Assembly: GCA_903865895.1 (NCBI GenBank)
Contig: CAIPLM010000239.1
Location: 1 to 36,139 of the forward strand
Direction: 5' to 3'
Length of the DNA stretch: 36,139 nucleotides
Origin: an uncultured Rhodospirillales bacterium
GTDB taxonomy: Bacteria > Pseudomonadota > Alphaproteobacteria > Acetobacterales > Acetobacteraceae
Positions 27,360-36,139 of the stretch are shown one piece after another. Under the pieces are notes generated by a model, which had not been told where the DNA came from, did no database searches, and worked only from the letters and a program-made list of their open reading frames with translations. The translations under genes and the position numbers were made by a program. Every line of letters begins with the position of its first letter. Position 1 is the stretch's first letter.

Positions 27360-28469
27360 ATGAACGTCCAGCTTCGCGAGACAACCGCGCTGCAATCCAC
27401 CGCCGCCAGCCGGCTCGCGGTCGCCGATTGCGACATCCATCCCGCCACCCGCTCCGACAAGGACCTCCACCCCTGGCTGGAGCGGAAATGGATCGACCAT
27501 ATCGCCCAGTTCGGCCGTCCGGCGCGCCATGGCTGGATCTCCGGCCCGGCCTATCCCAAGGCGCAACCCAACGCCTCCCGCCGCGACGCCTATCCGCCCG
27601 AGGGCGGCCGCCAGGGCAGCAGCCTCTCCTTCATGCAGGTGCAGCATCTCGACGCCAACAACGTCGAGCTCGGCATCCTCAACCCGCTCGGCTCCGGCCA
27701 GGGCGTGCAGAACCCCGACCTCTCCAACGCCATCTGCCACGCCACCAATGAGTGGCAGATCGCCGAATGGACCGGCAAGGACAGCCGCCTCAAGGGGTCC
27801 GTGGTGGTGAATTACGAGGACGGCCCGGAAGCCGCCGCCGAAATCCGCCGCTACGCCGGCAACAAGAACTTCGTGCAGGTCCTGCTGCTGACCCGCACCG
27901 CCGAGCCACTCGGTGCGCGCCGCTACTGGCCGATCTACGAAGCGGCCAGCGAGGCCGGCCTCGCGGTCGCCATCCATGCCTTCGGCTACGGTGGCAACCC
28001 GATCACCACTGCGGGCTGGCCGAGCTACTACATCGAGGAAATGGTCGGTCACGCCCAGACCAGCGAGGCGGTCGTCACCAGCTTGGTCACCGAGGGCGTC
28101 TTCGCCCGCTTCCCCAAGCTGAAGGTGATCATGGTCGAGGGCGGTTTCGCCTGGGCGCCGCCGCTGGCCTGGCGCCTCGACAAGACCTGGAAGCGCCTGA
28201 AGGCGGAAACCCCGCTGCTCACCCGCGCCCCTTCGGAATACATCCGCGACCATGTCTGGTGGACCAGCCAGCCCATGGAAGAGCCCGAACCGCGCGAGCA
28301 CCTGCTCGACACTATCGGCTGGATGGGCTGGGACCGGCTGCTGTTCGCCACCGATTATCCCCACTGGGATTTCGATGACCCCGCAACCTGCCTGCCGCTG
28401 AAGCTCGACGAGGCGCAACGCCGCGCCTTCTTCCGCGCTAACGCCGACGCGGTTTACGGGCTGACTTGA
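27360..28469 (+). CDS. Amidohydrolase family protein, DCDIHP subgroup, copy 3
   Basis: This is a 369-residue amidohydrolase_2 protein, the third of its subgroup here and most like the one at 20653-21762. Metal and active-site blocks are VADCDIHPATRSD, AIHAFGYGGNPITTAGWPSY and FATDYPHWDFDDP. The shared long blocks and equal length show a recent common origin with copy 2, although the genes are 5.6 kb apart and in different transcription units. The ATG at 27360 is preceded by GGGAG; the longer frame from 27114 reads antisense through the DinB gene and is not used. Function is probably hydrolysis or decarboxylation of a cyclic or aromatic acid, but this is not proven. Confidence 0.9.
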   Translation: MNVQLRETTALQSTAASRLAVADCDIHPATRSDKDLHPWLERKWIDHIAQFGRPARHGWISGPAYPKAQPNASRRDAYPPEGGRQGSSLSFMQVQHLDANNVELGILNPLGSGQGVQNPDLSNAICHATNEWQIAEWTGKDSRLKGSVVVNYEDGPEAAAEIRRYAGNKNFVQVLLLTRTAEPLGARRYWPIYEAASEAGLAVAIHAFGYGGNPITTAGWPSYYIEEMVGHAQTSEAVVTSLVTEGVFARFPKLKVIMVEGGFAWAPPLAWRLDKTWKRLKAETPLLTRAPSEYIRDHVWWTSQPMEEPEPREHLLDTIGWMGWDRLLFATDYPHWDFDDPATCLPLKLDEAQRRAFFRANADAVYGLT

Positions 28470-28487
28470 ATTTCATGCAGAGCGGTT

Positions 28488-28517
28488 TTGCTTGCGTCGG
28501 CGGGCGCGGCTTTGTAT
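28488..28517 (+). promoter_or_regulatory. Candidate promoter of the cupredoxin-FTR1 operon
   Basis: TTGCTT (28488-28493) and TTGTAT (28512-28517) are separated by 18 bases. The palindromic operator candidate begins 5 bases downstream, so a bound repressor would block the start of transcription. Confidence 0.4.
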
Positions 28518-28522
28518 GGTCC

Positions 28523-28557
28523 GGCTCGCAATTGCAAATCATTCGCAATTGCGAGCC
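28523..28557. promoter_or_regulatory. Perfect 13-bp palindrome, candidate Fur-family operator
   Basis: GGCTCGCAATTGC (28523-28535) and GCAATTGCGAGCC (28545-28557) are exact inverted copies around AAATCATTC. The centre TTGCAAATCATTCGCAA resembles Fur-type iron boxes of alphaproteobacteria as remembered (TGCRAATNATTYGCA style). It lies just before a cupredoxin-FTR1 iron-transport operon. The ribosome site AAGGAC follows at once, so it could alternatively act as an RNA hairpin in the leader. Confidence 0.55.
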
Positions 28558-28570
28558 GAAGGACCACCCG

Positions 28571-28900
28571 ATGCGCCGCCTCCTTCTCGCCGCACTGCTG
28601 CTCGCCCCGCTCGCCGCCACCCCGGCGCGCGCCGATGACCCGAGCTTCACCCTCACCATCCGCAACCACGTCTTCGACCCCGCACGCATCGAGGTGCCGG
28701 CCAACGCCAAGTTCCGCCTGCTGGTGAAAAACATGGACTCCACCCCCGAGGAGTTCGAAAGCAAAGACCTCCGACGCGAAAAGGTGATCGCCGGCGGCGC
28801 CGAGGCGGTGATACTGCTCGGCCCGCTGAAGCCCGGCACCTACCGCTTCGTCGGCGAATACAACGAGGCCACCGCCAAAGGCGTGCTGGTGGCGAAATAG
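28571..28900 (+). CDS. Cupredoxin-like periplasmic protein of an FTR1 iron-uptake operon
   Basis: This is a 109-residue exported protein with a Sec signal peptide (MRRLLLAALLLAPLAATPARA, cleavage before DDPSF) and one cupredoxin-fold domain. The family is usually encoded next to FTR1 permeases, where it is thought to help deliver or oxidise iron, like the cupredoxin part of EfeO. The mature protein has no cysteine. The usual C-terminal copper loop (Cys-x-His-x-Met) reads FVGEYNEATAKG, so a classical type 1 copper site is absent. Acidic residues (STPEEFESKD) could bind iron instead. ATG 28571 has AAGGAC upstream; the longer frame from 28466 crosses the palindrome. The permease gene starts 18 bases after the stop. 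Confidence 0.87.
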   Translation: MRRLLLAALLLAPLAATPARADDPSFTLTIRNHVFDPARIEVPANAKFRLLVKNMDSTPEEFESKDLRREKVIAGGAEAVILLGPLKPGTYRFVGEYNEATAKGVLVAK

Positions 28901-28918
28901 ACAACCGGACGCGAAACC

Positions 28919-29746
28919 GTGCTCTCAACCGCCATCATCGTCTTCCGTGAAATCCTCGAAGCCTCGCTGATCGTCAGCGTGATGATGGCGGCCAGCCGCG
29001 GTGCCGCCGGGCGCGGCGTCTCGATCGGCGGCGGCGTCGCCGGCGGCGTGCTCGGCGCCTGCCTGCTCGCCCTCTTCGCCGGCCGCATCGGCGCGTCCAT
29101 GGAAGGCGTCGGCCAGGAAGTGCTCAACGCCGCCGTGCTCTGCGCCGCCGTGCTCATGCTCGCCTGGCACAGCATCTGGATGAAGCGCCACGGCCGCGAA
29201 ATGGCCCGGCAAATGACCGACGTCGCCAACGCCGTGCGCAGCGGCGGCCGGCCCATCTACATCCTCGGTGTCGTCGTCGGCGTCGCCGTGCTGCGCGAAG
29301 GCTCGGAAACCGTCCTCTTCCTCTACGGCATCGCCGCCGGCGGCGGTGGCGTGCAAGCCATGGCCATCGGCGGACTCCTCGGCATTATCTCCGGCATCGC
29401 CGTCTCCACCCTGCTCTACCGCGGCCTCCTCCACATCCCGCCCCGCCACCTCTTCCGCGTCACCGGAATCCTCATCCTCCTCATGGCCGGCGGAATGGCC
29501 TCCCAAGCCGCCGCCTTCCTCGTCGCCGCCGACCTGCTGCCCCCCCTCGGCGCCGAAATCTGGGATAGCTCCGCCATCCTCGATCCCAACAGCATCCTCG
29601 GCCGAACCCTCCACGCCCTCGTCGGCTACGACGCCAGGCCCGCGGGCGTCCAACTCCTGGTCTTCGCTGCTACCCTGGCAACCATCTACGCCTGCATGCA
29701 CGCCGTCGACCGCCCCCGCCCCACACGCCAAACCCGCCCGGCCTGA
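28919..29746 (+). CDS. FTR1 family iron permease (EfeU-like)
   Basis: This is an inner-membrane iron permease of 275 residues with about seven membrane helices. Both iron-binding motifs of the FTR1/EfeU family are present: REILE at 10-14 in helix 1 and REGSE at 126-130 in helix 4. The start is GTG at 28919, giving MLSTAIIVFREILEASLIV, the family's usual first helix. It is cotranscribed with the cupredoxin-like gene and lies behind the Fur-like palindrome, so iron repression is likely. No EfeB-type haem peroxidase gene follows; instead a transposase remnant begins about 75 bases on. Transport of ferrous or ferric iron is inferred from family knowledge. Confidence 0.93.
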   Translation: MLSTAIIVFREILEASLIVSVMMAASRGAAGRGVSIGGGVAGGVLGACLLALFAGRIGASMEGVGQEVLNAAVLCAAVLMLAWHSIWMKRHGREMARQMTDVANAVRSGGRPIYILGVVVGVAVLREGSETVLFLYGIAAGGGGVQAMAIGGLLGIISGIAVSTLLYRGLLHIPPRHLFRVTGILILLMAGGMASQAAAFLVAADLLPPLGAEIWDSSAILDPNSILGRTLHALVGYDARPAGVQLLVFAATLATIYACMHAVDRPRPTRQTRPA

Positions 29747-30241: not shown

Positions 30242-32575
30242 CTACCACCTCAGCCGCAGCGCGCCGAACACCTGGTGGACCGAGTAGCTCGCATTGCTAT
30301 CCCCGGAGAACAGGGCATTCGAGTACTGCGCGGCATTCACCTGCGTGCCGTAGTCCTTGTAGTTCAGGCGCTCGAACGTGTAGCCGAACCAGAGCGAGGC
30401 GTTGGGCATGATCTGGTATTCAGCCCGCAGCGAGAGGCTGTTCAGCATCGACTTCACATCCGGGATCGGCGAGAGCTGCAGCGCCGCCGTGCCGGCGGGG
30501 ACGAAGGAGTAGATGCCGCCATTGGCGATCGAGTAGGCATTGCGGCCAAGCGAGAAGGTGTAGTCGGCCGTCACCTTCAGATCGTCGCGCGCCTGCCAGT
30601 CGAGCGATGCACCGGCGGTATGGGTTTCGTCCATATTATGGCCGTTCCACACGCCGTTGCTGAGGCAGGGCGCGGGCCCGGTGTTCAGGGTCGTGCCGCC
30701 GCCGTTGCAGGCGGCGTTGGAGACGGCGCTGGCCTGGCTGAAGAACAGCATCTGGTAGGTGTAGTAGCCGTGCAACTGCACGTCATGGCTGATCCGGTAG
30801 GAGATGTCGGGGCCGATGTTGATGTTGTTGTTGTCGCGCAGGCCAAGCGCCGAATTCGGATAGTGGTCGAAAGCGGTGCGCCCGATCAGCGTGGTGGTCA
30901 GCTTCGGGGAGAGTTCGAGGTCCAGCGTGCCCTTGAACTCATCGCGCACCCGCGAGGCTTGATAGTAATTCACGAAACGGAAGAACTCGTTCTCGTTCAC
31001 CCCGAGGCCGTTCACCCAGGGATTGTTGCGGCTGTAGTTGCTGGCCAGCCGGTCTTCATGCGTATAGCCCAGGCTGCCGAATACGCCTTCTGTGAGCGTG
31101 CTGCGCACTTTGGCATTGATGGTGTTCTGGGTGATGAGGTTGGTATCGGCGTAGTTGCGTTGGGTCGTCTCATAGGCATAGCCGAGCATCAGCTTGGTCT
31201 GGGGGGTTACCCGGTAGCCGCCTTGCAGTTCGAATGACTGGTGCTGGTAGTTCAGCGGCATGTTGTAGGGCGTGATCGGCGCAGCCGCGAAGGCATCCTG
31301 ATAGTACTGCTTGTAGGCATTCCGCGGCGTCAGGTTGCGGCGATCGTCCAGCGTATAGGCGAGCCGCACATCGGCCCCGGCGAAGGGCTGTGAGGTGACG
31401 GCACCGTTGAGGTGCACCGTCTGGATCGACCCGTCGAGGTTGCTGGAAGGCGCTGGCAGACTGGCGAAGTTGGCATTCCCCGTGCCGGCCACGTAGGGCG
31501 AATTCTGCATCATCAGGCCGTACTGCAGGTTGAGGTTCACCCGCGTGGTCGGCGTGACGTTCATGGCGAACTGGCTCTTCAACTGATGAGCCGAGTTCGA
31601 CGGCGGTAGGGAGTAGATCGACACGATATTGGGCGAGCCCGCGGCCGCCGTCGCCGCGCTACCGGTGGCGCCCGTGCCGGCGGAGAACTGGAACGGGTTG
31701 GCCAGGTTCAGCGAGGCGACATTGTCGCGGAAGTTGTGGAAGGTGTAGCCGAACATCAGTTGCATCCCGCGACCATTATATTGCGCGGAGATGTCGTAGC
31801 GGTCGGTGTCGTAGTCGATCGGTTCGGCGAAATAGGCCAGCGCGCTCGACGTGATATTGCCATTCCCCGCAATCGGGCTCGGCGCGCCAAGAATGGCCAG
31901 CGAGTTCTCCTTGAAGCCCTCCCGATGCTCATGCCGCAGGCCGGTCTGCACCAGCCAGTCGCCATATTGCACCTTGCCGGTCGCCGTCATCGCCTCGCGC
32001 CGTGAGTAGATGTCCTCCACCTGGAGCAGCGGCGCGACGGTGGTGGCGTTTTTCACGCTGCCGGGCGCAACGCCGGCCACCAGGGCGCCGGATTTCCCCC
32101 AGATGCTGTGAAAGGAGTTGGACTGGAAGTCGGTCATGCCGTTGTAGGTGAAGTTCAACCCCCACCGGCCCTGCTGACCGAACTTGAGCGAGGCGGACCT
32201 GGTATCCTGCCCGAGGTCATAGGCCTCAGCGTCAAAATAGAAGGTTTCGCCGGAGTCCCAGGCGTCGCCGCCGCGGAAGCGGAAGGCGCCGAGGGCCATC
32301 ATGCCCCGGTCAACCATCCCGTTCAGCCGCCCGTAGCGGACGCCGACATTGCTTTGCCAGCCGCCGCCGATCACCACTTCCCCCTGGTAGGGCGCCACCG
32401 GTGGCGCGATTGGCGTCAGCGGCAGGGTGGTGATCTGGTTGTGCGACGTCGGCGGGGCCGCCGGCGTGGTGGGGGCGTTGGCGAGGTCGAAGTCATCGTC
32501 GTCAGCCAGTGCCGCGAAGGGCACCAGGCAGGCGGCGATGGCCGCGGCGAACCTCAGGGAGCGTGTGCGTTCCAT
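30242..32575 (-). CDS. MtrB/PioB family outer-membrane beta-barrel protein
   Basis: This is a 777-residue outer-membrane protein with a signal peptide (residues 1-24, cleaved after AALA), an Asp-rich and Pro/Thr-rich N-terminal stretch, and then long alternating amphipathic strands typical of the 26-28-strand MtrB/PioB porins. The last residues, HQVFGALRLRW, form a closing strand with a terminal aromatic residue. MtrB-type barrels wrap around a multihaem MtrA cytochrome and let electrons cross the outer membrane. The N-terminal CXXC motif known in Shewanella MtrB is absent, and the only mature cysteines are a pair in an extracellular-looking loop (NAACNGGG and APCLSNG). GGAGGGGAG precedes the ATG. 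It is the last gene of the four-gene cytochrome operon, 18 bases after the decahaem gene. Confidence 0.92.
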   Translation of the reverse strand: MERTRSLRFAAAIAACLVPFAALADDDDFDLANAPTTPAAPPTSHNQITTLPLTPIAPPVAPYQGEVVIGGGWQSNVGVRYGRLNGMVDRGMMALGAFRFRGGDAWDSGETFYFDAEAYDLGQDTRSASLKFGQQGRWGLNFTYNGMTDFQSNSFHSIWGKSGALVAGVAPGSVKNATTVAPLLQVEDIYSRREAMTATGKVQYGDWLVQTGLRHEHREGFKENSLAILGAPSPIAGNGNITSSALAYFAEPIDYDTDRYDISAQYNGRGMQLMFGYTFHNFRDNVASLNLANPFQFSAGTGATGSAATAAAGSPNIVSIYSLPPSNSAHQLKSQFAMNVTPTTRVNLNLQYGLMMQNSPYVAGTGNANFASLPAPSSNLDGSIQTVHLNGAVTSQPFAGADVRLAYTLDDRRNLTPRNAYKQYYQDAFAAAPITPYNMPLNYQHQSFELQGGYRVTPQTKLMLGYAYETTQRNYADTNLITQNTINAKVRSTLTEGVFGSLGYTHEDRLASNYSRNNPWVNGLGVNENEFFRFVNYYQASRVRDEFKGTLDLELSPKLTTTLIGRTAFDHYPNSALGLRDNNNINIGPDISYRISHDVQLHGYYTYQMLFFSQASAVSNAACNGGGTTLNTGPAPCLSNGVWNGHNMDETHTAGASLDWQARDDLKVTADYTFSLGRNAYSIANGGIYSFVPAGTAALQLSPIPDVKSMLNSLSLRAEYQIMPNASLWFGYTFERLNYKDYGTQVNAAQYSNALFSGDSNASYSVHQVFGALRLRW

Positions 32576-32593
32576 TGTCGTTTCTCCCCTCCG

Positions 32594-33538
32594 TCAGCGT
32601 GTGAACCACATGCCGGCGGGGCTGTTGGAGCCGTGAATTTGCGAGTGGCAGTTGACGCAGCCGCGGGCGAAGGCACGGAAGTTGGTGCTGATCGCGCCGT
32701 TGAAGCCGGTCTTCCCAGGCAATTGCTGGCCGCTCTGCGGGTTGGCCTGGTGGCCGGAGTTGGAGTGGCACTCCTGGCAGAGATAGGGCGAGCGCTGCGC
32801 GAGCAGGCGCGGCTGGTTGGAGCCGTGCGGCGTGTGGCAGTTCATGCAGTTCTCACGCACCGGCTGGTGTTCCCAGGCGAGCGGGCCGCGCTTCTCGGCA
32901 TGGCAGTTGTAGCAGGTCTCGTTGACCGTCAGTTCCTTCAGCAGCTTCGGCCCGGCCGAGCCATGCGGGTTGTGGCAATCCGAGCAGGCAACCTTGCCTT
33001 CGCGGATTGGGTGGTGGGAGAAGCGGAACACTTGCGAGCGCTGCTCGGCATGGCAGGTGAAGCACTTCTCGGCTTGCGAGAGTTTCACCAGCACGGGGTC
33101 TTTGCGGACATGCACGGTGTGGCAGTTGTTGCAGGCGGCGTCGTTGTTGGCGTGCTGGCTGCCCTGCCAGTTCATCCGCGCACCGGACTGGTGGCAGGAG
33201 AGGCAGACCTCATTGCGCGCCGCGGGCGGCGAGGCGTTCGGCCCCTTGAACAGCACGGAGGGCTTGTTCGACCGTGCTGCCACGTGATCGCCGCTGGCGC
33301 CGTGGCAGGACTCGCAGCCCATCTGCCCGAAGGGCGAATGGGCATCGCCCTTCGTGGCGTGCGGCGTCTGCAGGATCGGGTTCACCTTGGCGTCGTCATG
33401 ACACTTCAGGCAGGTGGCGGGCCCGCCGGTGGCGAAGGTCGCCGGCTGGGCTGGGGTCGGCTGCTGCGCGTTTGCGCCACCCGCGGAGAATGCGAGGAGC
33501 AGTGCGCCGAGCACCCCGGTGATTGTGAGTTTCCTCAT
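32594..33538 (-). CDS. Decahaem c-type cytochrome, MtrA/PioA/DmsE family
   Basis: This is an exported cytochrome of 314 residues (signal peptide about 1-24, ending ANA). Ten CXXCH haem sites begin at residues 43, 75, 112, 136, 159, 185, 209, 231, 254 and 294, the full MtrA/DmsE count. Many extra histidines (for example HHPIREG, HNPHGSAG, HTPHGSNQP) would serve as distal ligands. Such proteins are rod-shaped and insert into the MtrB barrel to move electrons between periplasm and cell surface. There is no long N-terminal extension like that of PioA, so the plain MtrA/DmsE type fits better. Direction of flow (metal reduction, DMSO reduction or Fe(II) oxidation) cannot be told from the protein. 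It starts 28 bases after the preceding cytochrome gene. Confidence 0.95.
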   Translation of the reverse strand: MRKLTITGVLGALLLAFSAGGANAQQPTPAQPATFATGGPATCLKCHDDAKVNPILQTPHATKGDAHSPFGQMGCESCHGASGDHVAARSNKPSVLFKGPNASPPAARNEVCLSCHQSGARMNWQGSQHANNDAACNNCHTVHVRKDPVLVKLSQAEKCFTCHAEQRSQVFRFSHHPIREGKVACSDCHNPHGSAGPKLLKELTVNETCYNCHAEKRGPLAWEHQPVRENCMNCHTPHGSNQPRLLAQRSPYLCQECHSNSGHQANPQSGQQLPGKTGFNGAISTNFRAFARGCVNCHSQIHGSNSPAGMWFTR

Positions 33539-33566
33539 GATCCGAGCATCCTTTGGCGACAGGAGG

Positions 33567-34547
33567 TCATTTTTTCACCGCGACGAAATCAGCGGCACCC
33601 GAGCCGATCGCGAGCGTCCGCTCGAAGGAGACGTAGTGGAAGCGCTTGGCGGTGTGGCCGGAATGGATCGCGATCGCGACCTGGTAGAGGCCGCCCTGCT
33701 GGAAATCGATCGGGCCGCCGCCGGCCATCTTGCCGCTCAGCGTGACCGACCAGTTGCCGGCCGAGCCGCTTGCCTCGGCGCTCGCGCGGGACGGCGCGGT
33801 TTCCTGCCGCTTGTCGAACACGGTGCCGGAGACCGCGCTGGCGGGCGCGCCCGGGTTCAGCTTGGCCTGCCAATATTCCAGCACGTAGCCGTCGGCCTTC
33901 AGCTTGGCGAGATCGGCGTCCGGCTTCAGCGCGTCGCCGCCGCCCTGGCGGGTCAGCTTGGCGTGGGTGCGCGGCAGATACTTGGTGCGGTTGGCGCCGG
34001 CGGCGCTGGGCATGGAGGCCGCATCGTCGTGGCAGGCGGCCCAGCACCCGGTCCGGGTCGCCTCGGAGGCAGCCTTCGGGATGAACATCACCGTCACCTT
34101 GGTGGCGGTCGCGGGGTCCTGCTTGGCGTCGGGCTGGGTGCCCTCCTTGAACTCGATATGGACGAGGAGGTTGGTGCCGTCATTGGCGAACTTCACGGTA
34201 GCGGGAATGGAGCCCGGCTTGCCCGCAATCGGCGTCGGCTCGATCGATGGCTTCTCGCCGGTCTTGAAGACGCGCTTCTGCCCGGTGACGATTTGCGGAC
34301 CCATGTCCTTCTCTTCACCGATATGGCAGGTGTCGCAGTTCTTGCCCTCGGTGCGGAACGACTTGGCGCCCGACATCTCACTCTCGGTCAGCGCCCATTC
34401 GTAGGAGGACTGGCCGGGGTAGAAGAGCACGATGTCCTTGCCGGGCACCGAACCCCAGTCCACCGCCGCGCGGGCCGGCGGCGCCGAAAGGGCGAGGGCC
34501 CCGAGGCCGGCAGCGGCCACGAACCCGAATGCTGAGCGTTTCATCAT
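33567..34547 (-). CDS. Periplasmic cytochrome with ethylbenzene dehydrogenase-like haem domain, CXXCH and CXXXCH motifs
   Basis: This is a 326-residue exported protein (signal peptide ending ARA before AVDW at about 27). A haem c motif, CDTCH, is at 71-75 in the N-terminal segment. The rest resembles the immunoglobulin-like haem domain of ethylbenzene dehydrogenase gamma subunits and cytochrome c-552/DMSO-reductase-like proteins: VHIEFKEGT, VTVMFIPKAA, then GCWAACHDD at 167-175 and a C-terminal VAIAIHSGHTAKRFHYVSF. The motif CWAACH has three residues between the cysteines, an atypical haem attachment site. Its place between the NapC-like and decahaem genes suggests that it relays electrons across the periplasm, in the role of small tetrahaem or FccA carriers elsewhere. 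The exact family is moderately certain. Confidence 0.8.
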   Translation of the reverse strand: MMKRSAFGFVAAAGLGALALSAPPARAAVDWGSVPGKDIVLFYPGQSSYEWALTESEMSGAKSFRTEGKNCDTCHIGEEKDMGPQIVTGQKRVFKTGEKPSIEPTPIAGKPGSIPATVKFANDGTNLLVHIEFKEGTQPDAKQDPATATKVTVMFIPKAASEATRTGCWAACHDDAASMPSAAGANRTKYLPRTHAKLTRQGGGDALKPDADLAKLKADGYVLEYWQAKLNPGAPASAVSGTVFDKRQETAPSRASAEASGSAGNWSVTLSGKMAGGGPIDFQQGGLYQVAIAIHSGHTAKRFHYVSFERTLAIGSGAADFVAVKK

Positions 34548-34562
34548 GATCTCGGCTCCCTT

Positions 34563-35195
34563 TCAATCGACATCGAAATTGTCGCTGTCCTTCGCGGGCT
34601 TCTCGCTCGGCGGCAGCTTGTGGGTGATGCCCTTGTGGCATTCGACGCAGTTCTGATCTTTCTTCGCGCCATCGGTGTGCGAGACACGGGCGCTCGGCTT
34701 CTGCTCGTCGAGCAGCATTCCGCTGTACTGGTGGCAGTGCTTGCACTCGCGGGCATTGGTGGCGGCGAACTTGGCCCAGACGTGCTTGGCGAGTTCGGGG
34801 CGCTCGCGCTCAAGCGCCTCACCGGTGTTGATGCCGCGGAACAGGAAGGCGTAGATCTCGGTGATGGTCGAGACCTTGGCGACGAACTCGTCGATCAAGT
34901 CGTACTGCGGCACATGGCAGTCTGGGCAGCCGACGCGCACGCCGTGCCTGTTGCTGTAGTGGACCGACTTCTTGTACTCTTCGTACACCGTGTCCCGCAT
35001 GATGTGGCAGGTGATGCAGAACTCGGTGTGGTTGGTGTGCTCGATGATTTTGACCCACGAACCCATCGCCACCAGGCCCGCGACCCCGCCGATTGCCAGA
35101 AGTGTCAATGACTTCCAGTATTTACCGGCGCACGCGAACAGCCGCCGAATGAGTCCCGGCTGTTTCCCCGCCGGCATCGCTGCCTGGTCGCTCAT
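34563..35195 (-). CDS. NapC/NirT family tetrahaem cytochrome c (CymA-like quinol dehydrogenase)
   Basis: This is a 210-residue inner-membrane cytochrome. One N-terminal membrane anchor (about 28-48, LTLLAIGGVAGLVAMGSWV) is followed by a periplasmic domain with four CXXCH haem sites at residues 60, 90, 151 and 183. This is the NapC/NirT/CymA plan. Such proteins take electrons from quinol and pass them to periplasmic carriers, or work in reverse in iron oxidisers. It is the first gene of the minus-strand operon; the next gene begins 15 bases after its stop. The ATG at 35195 is chosen because the anchor follows at the expected distance; its ribosome site is weak. No terminal reductase is encoded in the window. 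Confidence 0.94.
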   Translation of the reverse strand: MSDQAAMPAGKQPGLIRRLFACAGKYWKSLTLLAIGGVAGLVAMGSWVKIIEHTNHTEFCITCHIMRDTVYEEYKKSVHYSNRHGVRVGCPDCHVPQYDLIDEFVAKVSTITEIYAFLFRGINTGEALERERPELAKHVWAKFAATNARECKHCHQYSGMLLDEQKPSARVSHTDGAKKDQNCVECHKGITHKLPPSEKPAKDSDNFDVD

Positions 35196-35395: not shown

Positions 35396-36139
35396 TCAGT
35401 CAGCGGCCACTCGGTCGTCTTGCCCGACCGCGGCGGCGTGGAATCGGGCGAAATTAGCGACGGCGGTGCCCGCTTCCTCTTCGGGCAGGCGGGCGAAGCC
35501 GAGCAGCAGCATCTTCGGCACCCGGGCTGCCAGTTCGGCTGCGATTGGCACGGGAAGTACGCAGGCAGGGATGCCGCAGTGCCGCGCCAATGTCGCCAGC
35601 CGCTCGGCACCGGCGAAGGTGGCGGGCGGGCGCCACGCCAAAGTCAGGCCGGCCGCCGCGCCGATCACCTGCCCACCCGGGAAGTTCGCCTGGAGCGCCG
35701 AGGCCAGCGCCTCGCGCCGTGCGCCGTAGATGCGGCGGATCCGCAGCAGATGCCTTGTATAGGCATCGCTCTCGATGAACTCATTGAGGACGCCGAGCCA
35801 GATACCCCCCGCCTCACCCTGCCCCGTTGCCCGCGCCGCCTCCGCCCGCTCGGCGAGGGAGGGGGGGACGACCAGGTAGCCGGTTGAGAGCCACGGCCGC
35901 AGAATTCCGCCGAAATCGCCGACATAGCAGACCCGCCCAGCCCGGTCCTCCGCCATCAAGGCGGGGCGGTGGTGGTGATCGTAGCGTAGGTCCCCCACGC
36001 GATCGATCTCGACGACATGCGCGGCCATGGCAGTGGCCCAGGCAAGAACCTCCTGCCGCCGCTCCGGCGCCAGCGTCGCACCGAGCGGATAGTGCCAGCC
36101 CGGCATCACCTGGAGCAGCGCCGTTGGCGTGCGCGGCAG
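35396..36139 (-). CDS. MocR-type (GntR/aminotransferase-like) protein, C-terminal part, degenerate PLP site (5' end outside window)
   Basis: The open frame runs off the right edge, and about 247 codons of the C-terminal, aminotransferase-like domain are visible. Typical blocks are MPGWHYPLGATLAPERRQEVL, then RVCYVGDFGGILRP, STGYLVVPPSL and MLLLGFARLPEEE. In working MocR and GabR proteins the first block is followed by EDDYDxEFRY and the second reads GTFSKxLxP. Here they read EIDRVGDLRY and GDFGGILRP, so the PLP-binding Asp, Tyr and the Schiff-base Lys all appear to be replaced (Lys site at 35906-35908 is GGA). The N-terminal winged helix would lie outside the window. It could be a regulator that no longer uses PLP. 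It is encoded upstream of, and in the same direction as, the cytochrome operon. Confidence 0.8.
   Translation of the reverse strand: MPRTPTALLQVMPGWHYPLGATLAPERRQEVLAWATAMAAHVVEIDRVGDLRYDHHHRPALMAEDRAGRVCYVGDFGGILRPWLSTGYLVVPPSLAERAEAARATGQGEAGGIWLGVLNEFIESDAYTRHLLRIRRIYGARREALASALQANFPGGQVIGAAAGLTLAWRPPATFAGAERLATLARHCGIPACVLPVPIAAELAARVPKMLLLGFARLPEEEAGTAVANFARFHAAAVGQDDRVAAD

Follow-up and report, generated by a model that had tools for sequence, protein, structure and literature searches.

The MtrAB core, which pairs a decahaem cytochrome with an outer-membrane barrel, and the principle by which it works are already known, and several systems share this core. MtrCAB adds the surface decahaem cytochrome MtrC/OmcA, while in Dms (DmsEF-AB) the dmsAB genes lie beside the conduit. 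PioABC of Rhodopseudomonas comprises a decahaem cytochrome and a barrel without MtrC (PMC10654088). MtoAB-CymA-MtoD of Sideroxydans, according to the same source, also lacks MtrC and includes a CymA-type gene, decahaem MtoA, barrel MtoB, and MtoD, a short monohaem cytochrome c (PMC10654088). CymA-PdsA-MtrCAB of Vibrionaceae and Aeromonas contains a CymA-type gene, a two-haem periplasmic shuttle, MtrA, MtrB, and MtrC (PMC8805035). The nearest described arrangement is the "cytochrome c-552"-MtrA-MtrB operon of a Telmatospirillum metagenome-assembled genome, an alphaproteobacterium from a goethite-reducing mixed culture, where a two-haem cytochrome directly precedes MtrA-MtrB and MtrC/OmcA is missing (PMC6933298). 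Here, we analyzed a 36,139-nucleotide contig of an uncultured Rhodospirillales bacterium of the Acetobacteraceae (CAIPLM010000239.1, referred to as the window), which carries on its minus strand a four-gene operon that we are modestly inclined to regard as a respiratory exit line from the quinol pool to the outside of the cell.

The operon is tight, with gaps of 15, 28, and 18 bp between genes transcribed in the order NapC, EBdh, MtrA, and MtrB; the last three genes each have a purine-rich site ahead of them. The gene at 34563 to 35195 encodes a NapC/NirT (CymA-type) tetrahaem protein of 210 amino acids (aa), a probable quinol dehydrogenase (PF03264, 190 bits; four CXXCH motifs). It is followed by the gene at 33567 to 34547, encoding a dihaem cytochrome of 326 aa with the EB_dh fold, here called EBdh and regarded as a probable periplasmic shuttle (PF09459, 86 bits; one CXXCH and one CXXXCH). 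The genes at 32594 to 33538 and at 30242 to 32575 encode, respectively, a decahaem MtrA-family cytochrome of 314 aa (TIGR03508, 312.9 bits; ten CXXCH) and an MtrB/PioB-family outer-membrane barrel of 777 aa (PF11854, 378.8 bits; TIGR03509, 366.6 bits). All four proteins surpass the curated Pfam or NCBIfam cut-offs (for example, 192.2 bits for TIGR03508 and 33.3 bits for PF09459), and the location, the four families, and the tetrahaem and decahaem counts are as given in the first-pass annotation of this DNA. In the host genome, which has a listed completeness of 99.19% and contamination of 2.52%, the only TIGR03508 match and the only PF09459 match are those of the operon. Since six relatives of the same order keep EBdh-MtrA-MtrB, we deem the operon genes, as judged from their sequences, to be real and maintained.

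The MtrAB part of the operon is that of the porin-cytochrome superfamily, with an MtrB_PioB barrel adjoining a decahaem cytochrome of the DmsE/MtrA family. The exact count of ten CXXCH sites, already reported in the first-pass annotation, is far beyond chance, as 2000 shuffles of the MtrA protein gave a mean of 0.10 and a maximum of 2. MtrA shares 44% identity across 271 columns with Shewanella baltica MtrA (6R2Q). Outside the CXXCH motifs it has twelve His residues, ten of which align with His residues of the S. baltica protein, as would fit ten bis-His haems. On the other side of the operon, proteins of the CymA/NapC family are described as oxidizing quinol (PMC10654088), and the same activity is predicted, from its family, for the NapC-type protein found here.

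The layout as a whole departs from each of the described systems. The host genome has no match to the MtrC/OmcA family (TIGR03507, 0 matches by profile search), which confirms the absence of a surface cytochrome noted near the operon and extends it to the genome. No dmsAB-type molybdoenzyme genes were recognized in the operon or within 5 kb downstream, though they were not searched for genome-wide. As had been noted, no gene for PioC, a high-potential iron-sulfur protein (HiPIP), lies nearby: none follows MtrB in the list of open reading frames, and the rest of the genome was not searched for HiPIP. Loci labeled as Pio from their context (L204 to L212) have a PioA with a long N terminus (427 to 641 aa in nine loci, versus 314 aa for the MtrA of the window) and no NapC or EBdh in the operon, and a HiPIP-like gene is found in 7/9 of them. 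With respect to Sideroxydans, the monohaem MtoD contrasts with a PF09459 dihaem protein in the shuttle position. With respect to CymA-PdsA-MtrCAB, the PdsA-like protein of Photobacterium (L024) carries two CXXCH motifs and gives no EB_dh match; we also considered EBdh as a PdsA and rejected this, as EBdh matches PF09459 and is not labeled PdsA by profile search. In Telmatospirillum, unlike here, the CymA-like gene is located elsewhere, in a nitrate-reduction operon, and the cytochrome was read as an extracellular reductase substituting for MtrC (PMC6933298); we liken this c-552 protein to EBdh by description and gene order rather than by sequence, and the two are likely equivalent. The earlier statement that the layout is unlike mtrCAB, pioABC, and mtoAB is thus borne out by gene order and context, the layout differs from dmsEF as well, and the trans-envelope conduit is supported by gene content and order, but a "separate type" of route is too strong a term, since the core and the principle belong to the MtrAB family.

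The component that sets the operon apart is EBdh. Its assignment as an EB_dh-like cytochrome holds for both family and fold, with the correction that it bears two c-type haem motifs, a CXXCH at residue 71 and a CXXXCH (CWAACH) at residue 168, because of which covalent haem attachment is expected. Both motifs are found in 80/80 related loci and, together with His294 and His303, in 49/49 aligned EBdh proteins; these two His residues would be the natural pair of second haem ligands. The AlphaFold2 model of EBdh (pLDDT 85.6, pTM 0.85) resembles the gamma subunit of ethylbenzene dehydrogenase, EbdC (2IVF chain C; Foldseek E value of 6.7e-9; Z score of 14.8 and root mean square deviation of 3.5 over 185 residues), and a nitrite oxidoreductase subunit (Z score of 13.3). 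Weaker matches were obtained with carbohydrate-binding modules (Z scores of 9.0 to 9.4) and the cytochrome domain of cellobiose dehydrogenase (Z score of 8.4). The predicted fold thus appears to be that of haem-carrying subunits of periplasmic enzymes. The ethylbenzene gamma subunit itself differs, being a 214-aa protein described as holding a non-covalent haem b (PMC10654088), and its equivalog model NF042980 scores EBdh at only 16 bits against a cut-off of 400.

EBdh is not the one-off insertion that the first-pass annotation supposed but part of a recurring pair with NapC. Of 299 sampled genomes of the same order, 10 have an MtrB-family match, and 7 of these, counting that of the window, have an intact MtrAB locus; EBdh stands directly before MtrA in 7/7 of these loci, and NapC is present too in 4/6 relatives. 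The six relatives share 57 to 83% identity with the window for EBdh and MtrA and 35 to 62% for MtrB. To look beyond the order, we named 80 loci, the best 80 of 329 relatives from a contig scan with the EBdh alignment, with genes called by custom profile models; having been picked by EBdh similarity, these loci are uninformative on frequency. The nearest of them come from bins titled Rhodospirillales or Acetobacteraceae. The set also includes loci of cultivated strains, such as L067 of Rehaibacterium terrae DSM 25897 and L059 of Skermanella stibiiresistens SB22. EBdh lies directly before an MtrA-like gene in 43/80, from Alpha- and Gammaproteobacteria, a number that includes L053 and L055, whose MtrA-like neighbor has four haem motifs, and L054, which is cut at a contig end. 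Among these 43 loci, NapC is in front in 34, by a counting rule that misses L067 (over-extended frame) and L029 (a MocR-like gene in between), and MtrB is behind in 36; five of the seven loci without MtrB end within 1.5 kb of a contig end, and L053 and L055 do not. The genome search proposed in the first-pass annotation thus shows the order to be widespread, with the qualification that NapC is not always present.

A second setting of the pair is the cd1-nitrite-reductase cluster, found in 23/80 named loci as judged by cytochrome D1, cd1 nitrite reductase, or NirJ genes (for example, L083 of Magnetospirillum, L095 of Roseibium, and plasmid loci L021 to L023). Members of the NapC and EBdh families, the latter with its two haem motifs, are there fused (12 loci) or adjacent (10 loci), with a single locus lacking NapC. 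Around them, in place of MtrAB, are genes for cytochrome D1, NirJ, nitrite reductase, and, in many cases, azurin; decahaem MtrA was found in 0/23 of the examined stretches. In a plasmid collection, 5/5 EBdh matches fall inside genes named NapC/NirT family cytochrome c, and the three plasmid loci inspected, one of Azospirillum and two of Ruegeria, have cytochrome D1 and azurin-type genes as neighbors. Three Rhodopila bins (L031, L033, and L034) keep NapC-EBdh with no MtrA or MtrB in the examined stretch, which ties EBdh to NapC as well as to MtrAB. The remaining named loci have a divergent MtrAB nearby (4/80) or neither setting (10/80). Since EBdh recurs before MtrA and, mostly with NapC, among cd1-nitrite-reductase genes, it looks like the periplasmic half of a quinol-oxidizing module that feeds different acceptors. 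In two loci EBdh has other neighbors: at L077:7925-10876 it lies beside a protein resembling a pyrroloquinoline quinone dehydrogenase (PF01011, 246 bits), perhaps a third electron partner, and at L070:6398-9454 NapC and EBdh are followed by a 400-aa protein that contains a single CXXCH, scores 22 bits against Porin_4 (below the cut-off of 27), and may be a conduit in which porin and cytochrome are fused.

Samples drawn with MtrB instead of EBdh gave a match in 46 of 398 genomes of the phylum and in 22 of 385 of the class. We examined 33 stretches from these two samples, setting aside two strong second places and the weak matches; 29 of them hold an MtrA with at least 8 CXXCH, and EBdh is present in 1/29. 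This is the EBdh-MtrA-MtrB cluster L181:7872-13509, found in the phylum sample in a Shewanella-like genome (same family code as the Shewanella-like references) that also carries an MtrC-type locus. Just ahead of the cluster is a gene for a single-CXXCH protein, apparently chemoreceptor-like.

The phylogenetic trees place the proteins of the operon outside the Pio, MtrCAB, and Dms rows. Group labels were taken from gene context, with S. baltica MtrA as the sole named reference and no named Sideroxydans or Gallionella sequences; Pio labels combine genome family, length, and the HiPIP-like gene mentioned above, which Pfam confirmed in 1/2 cases tested; and L013 to L018 were left out, as they lie on the same contigs as named loci. 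In the MtrA tree (92 rows), one branch (support 81/83) unites 42 EBdh-linked rows including the window, 11 rows for second MtrA copies from the same loci, and L185, so that the EBdh-linked MtrA proteins appear, with moderate support, to form a branch of their own. The nine Pio-labeled rows group at 100/99, the MtrCAB plus Dms rows at 89/95, and ten rows with a nine-haem neighbor or their kin at 100/100. Joining the 17-row MtrA group of the window to Pio was rejected by the approximately unbiased test (p-AU of 1.9e-6), as was joining it to 11 MtrCAB/Dms rows (p-AU of 0.0004); the tight grouping inside a described clade that the first-pass annotation would have taken as a refutation is thus not seen for Pio, MtrCAB, or Dms. 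In the MtrB tree, a quick tree of 81 rows read in part, 35/37 EBdh-linked rows fall in one 46-row branch (91), while L075 and L181, both long, are placed elsewhere. In a quick tree of EBdh (82 rows), 22 nitrite-cluster proteins form one branch (99), which the MtrAB-linked L071, L079, and L181 join at 96, and the 23rd, L066, sits among MtrAB-side rows. The nitrite-type NapC-EBdh of L084, from a record titled Stygiobacter, is nested within Magnetospirillum rows, an instance of either inter-phylum transfer or a binning error.

According to the scheme that we somewhat favor, the NapC-type protein would take electrons from the quinol pool, probably from ubiquinol, and pass them to soluble dihaem EBdh in the periplasm; EBdh would reduce the ten-haem MtrA wire inside the MtrB barrel, and MtrA would deliver the electrons at the outer surface to an acceptor of fairly high potential, for example, Fe(III) complexes, humic quinones, or Mn(IV). 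The families and haem counts of the operon proteins match each proposed step. The location of EBdh, the order of the hops, the direction of flow, the quinone, and the acceptor are those that we infer. Fusion to NapC in some lineages and adjacency in others make EBdh, most simply, the direct periplasmic partner of NapC, and the export line is further suggested by an AxA-type site just ahead of the mature start of EBdh in 33/43 EBdh-MtrA loci, together with a lipobox-like pattern, crudely defined, in only 2/43. A number of points weigh against it. The direction of flow is read from homology. The AxA site is unseen in 10/43 EBdh proteins, many of which have over-extended frames, and the two lipobox-like patterns count on the same side. 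NapC does not adjoin EBdh in some loci (e.g., L025, L026, and L045), and at L059:6953-8005 and L052:3687-4718 a seven-haem cytochrome stands upstream of EBdh-MtrA-MtrB in its place. Ubiquinol is chosen as the probable quinol from lacking matches to two menaquinone families: PF02621 has no match in the genome, and a MenD search gave 12 matches with 0 over the cut-off, that search being positive also in 14/14 control genomes. To these are added a RuBisCO-superfamily match over the cut-off in the genome (67 bits, cut-off 30.1, in a 382-aa frame; G000:C249:25881-26552, L203), oxidative extracellular electron transfer (EET) genes linked to Acetobacteraceae in Trout Bog (PMC12285243), and iron oxidation, considered widespread among acidophilic Acetobacteraceae (PMC10715153).

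The last two of these points would suit a flow in reverse. MtrAB would then draw electrons from Fe(II) or from reduced humics outside the cell, and EBdh and NapC would relay them into the periplasm and the quinone pool. Such a flow has been proposed for Pio and Mto, systems that share with the host genome the lack of a surface MtrC; an FTR1 iron permease gene near the operon is in line with it as well. We nevertheless hold this direction to be rather unlikely, as the NapC-EBdh pair in nitrite clusters presumably oxidizes quinol, the FTR1 gene is not retained next to the operon in relatives, and the genome has no photosynthetic reaction center match (Photo_RC), a result by which photoferrotrophy was also rejected. 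As for the RuBisCO match, its 67 bits and the fact that the same search is positive in Bacillus subtilis indicate that it may be a RuBisCO-like protein. A different role for EBdh, that of a small extracellular terminal reductase taking the place of MtrC where MtrAB reaches the outside, was proposed by Gagen et al. for the Telmatospirillum protein, which was predicted to be extracellular by BUSCA (PMC6933298). The order two-haem cytochrome-MtrA-MtrB does mirror mtrCAB, and the genome lacks MtrC. However, EBdh is fused to NapC and located in nitrite-reductase clusters, and the three Rhodopila bins keep it without MtrAB in the examined stretch. MtrC and OmcA are lipoproteins, a feature that the rarity of the lipobox-like pattern among EBdh proteins does not reproduce, and a surface role is in our opinion improbable. 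A conventional Mto system whose MtoD shuttle was replaced would account for the CymA-type gene and the missing MtrC. It would also fit the adjacent branch of the MtrA tree, which holds the Mto-like row together with rows having nine-haem neighbors (83/72), and the 46-row MtrB branch, in which the Mto-like L165 sits with most EBdh-linked rows. Yet the operon has no class I monohaem gene, the 100/100 MtrA branch of nine-haem-neighbor rows or kin is free of EBdh rows, and joining the 17-row group of the window to L165, the sole Mto-like row, labeled by context and on a long branch, is weakly rejected (p-AU of 0.024), so that we give this origin very little credence.

Upstream of the operon, at 35396 to 36139 on the minus strand, lies an incomplete MocR-like gene cut by the contig end, a possible regulator of the operon. 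PdxR is its best NCBIfam match (120 bits, below the cut-off of 320), and Pfam gives no match. A MocR-like gene, for an aminotransferase-like regulator, is upstream in 22/43 EBdh-MtrA loci and in 5/6 relatives of the same order. An FNR-type box, searched for with two exact patterns in the window, was not found in the 201 bases upstream of NapC. Downstream, within 5 kb and convergent to the operon, a cupredoxin-domain gene and the FTR1-type iron permease gene occupy 28466 to 29746 on the plus strand. A link to iron uptake was considered and rejected: neither gene turned up around the six intact relatives or among the 80 named loci, and they were not counted as parts of the system.

As far as the open-licence PubMed Central text extends, we found no description of NapC-EBdh-MtrA-MtrB as such, the nearest being the Telmatospirillum operon (PMC6933298), nor of a shuttle formed by a dihaem EB_dh protein, of its CXXXCH site, of a NapC-EBdh module common to different systems, or of how widely the layout occurs. 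"Ethylbenzene dehydrogenase" appears there in an MtrA, MtrB, and EET context for archaeal FoxC (PMC10654088). In the main text of a 2023 study on the bioenergetics of Acetobacteraceae, the terms MtrA, MtrB, PioA, decaheme, and multiheme occur 0 times, and iron is treated through Cyc2. As such, EET potential among Acetobacteraceae of humic water is no novelty, since a fraction of 0.86 of the Acetobacteraceae bins from Trout Bog was reported as EET-positive (PMC12285243).

Taken together, NapC and EBdh may constitute a portable quinol-oxidizing module that is plugged into cd1 nitrite reduction, into MtrAB export lines of Alpha- and Gammaproteobacteria, and possibly into the fused porin-cytochrome of L070, with its MtrAB lines forming their own lineage apart from Mtr, Dms, and Pio, a proposal for which we see the case as evenly balanced. 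It would bear on the way in which a conduit connects to the quinone pool, as nitrite reduction and an outer-membrane wire seem to share a single periplasmic module. The dihaem protein has two competing roles, that of a surface reductase, published for its likely relative, and that of a periplasmic shuttle, as proposed here, and the defined four-gene set is suitable for reconstitution. EET has been studied mostly in Shewanella, Geobacter, and a few iron oxidizers, and were a distinct, repeatedly conserved line to operate in Acetobacteraceae, Caulobacteraceae, and several Gammaproteobacteria, a wider range of organisms could breathe humics or iron.

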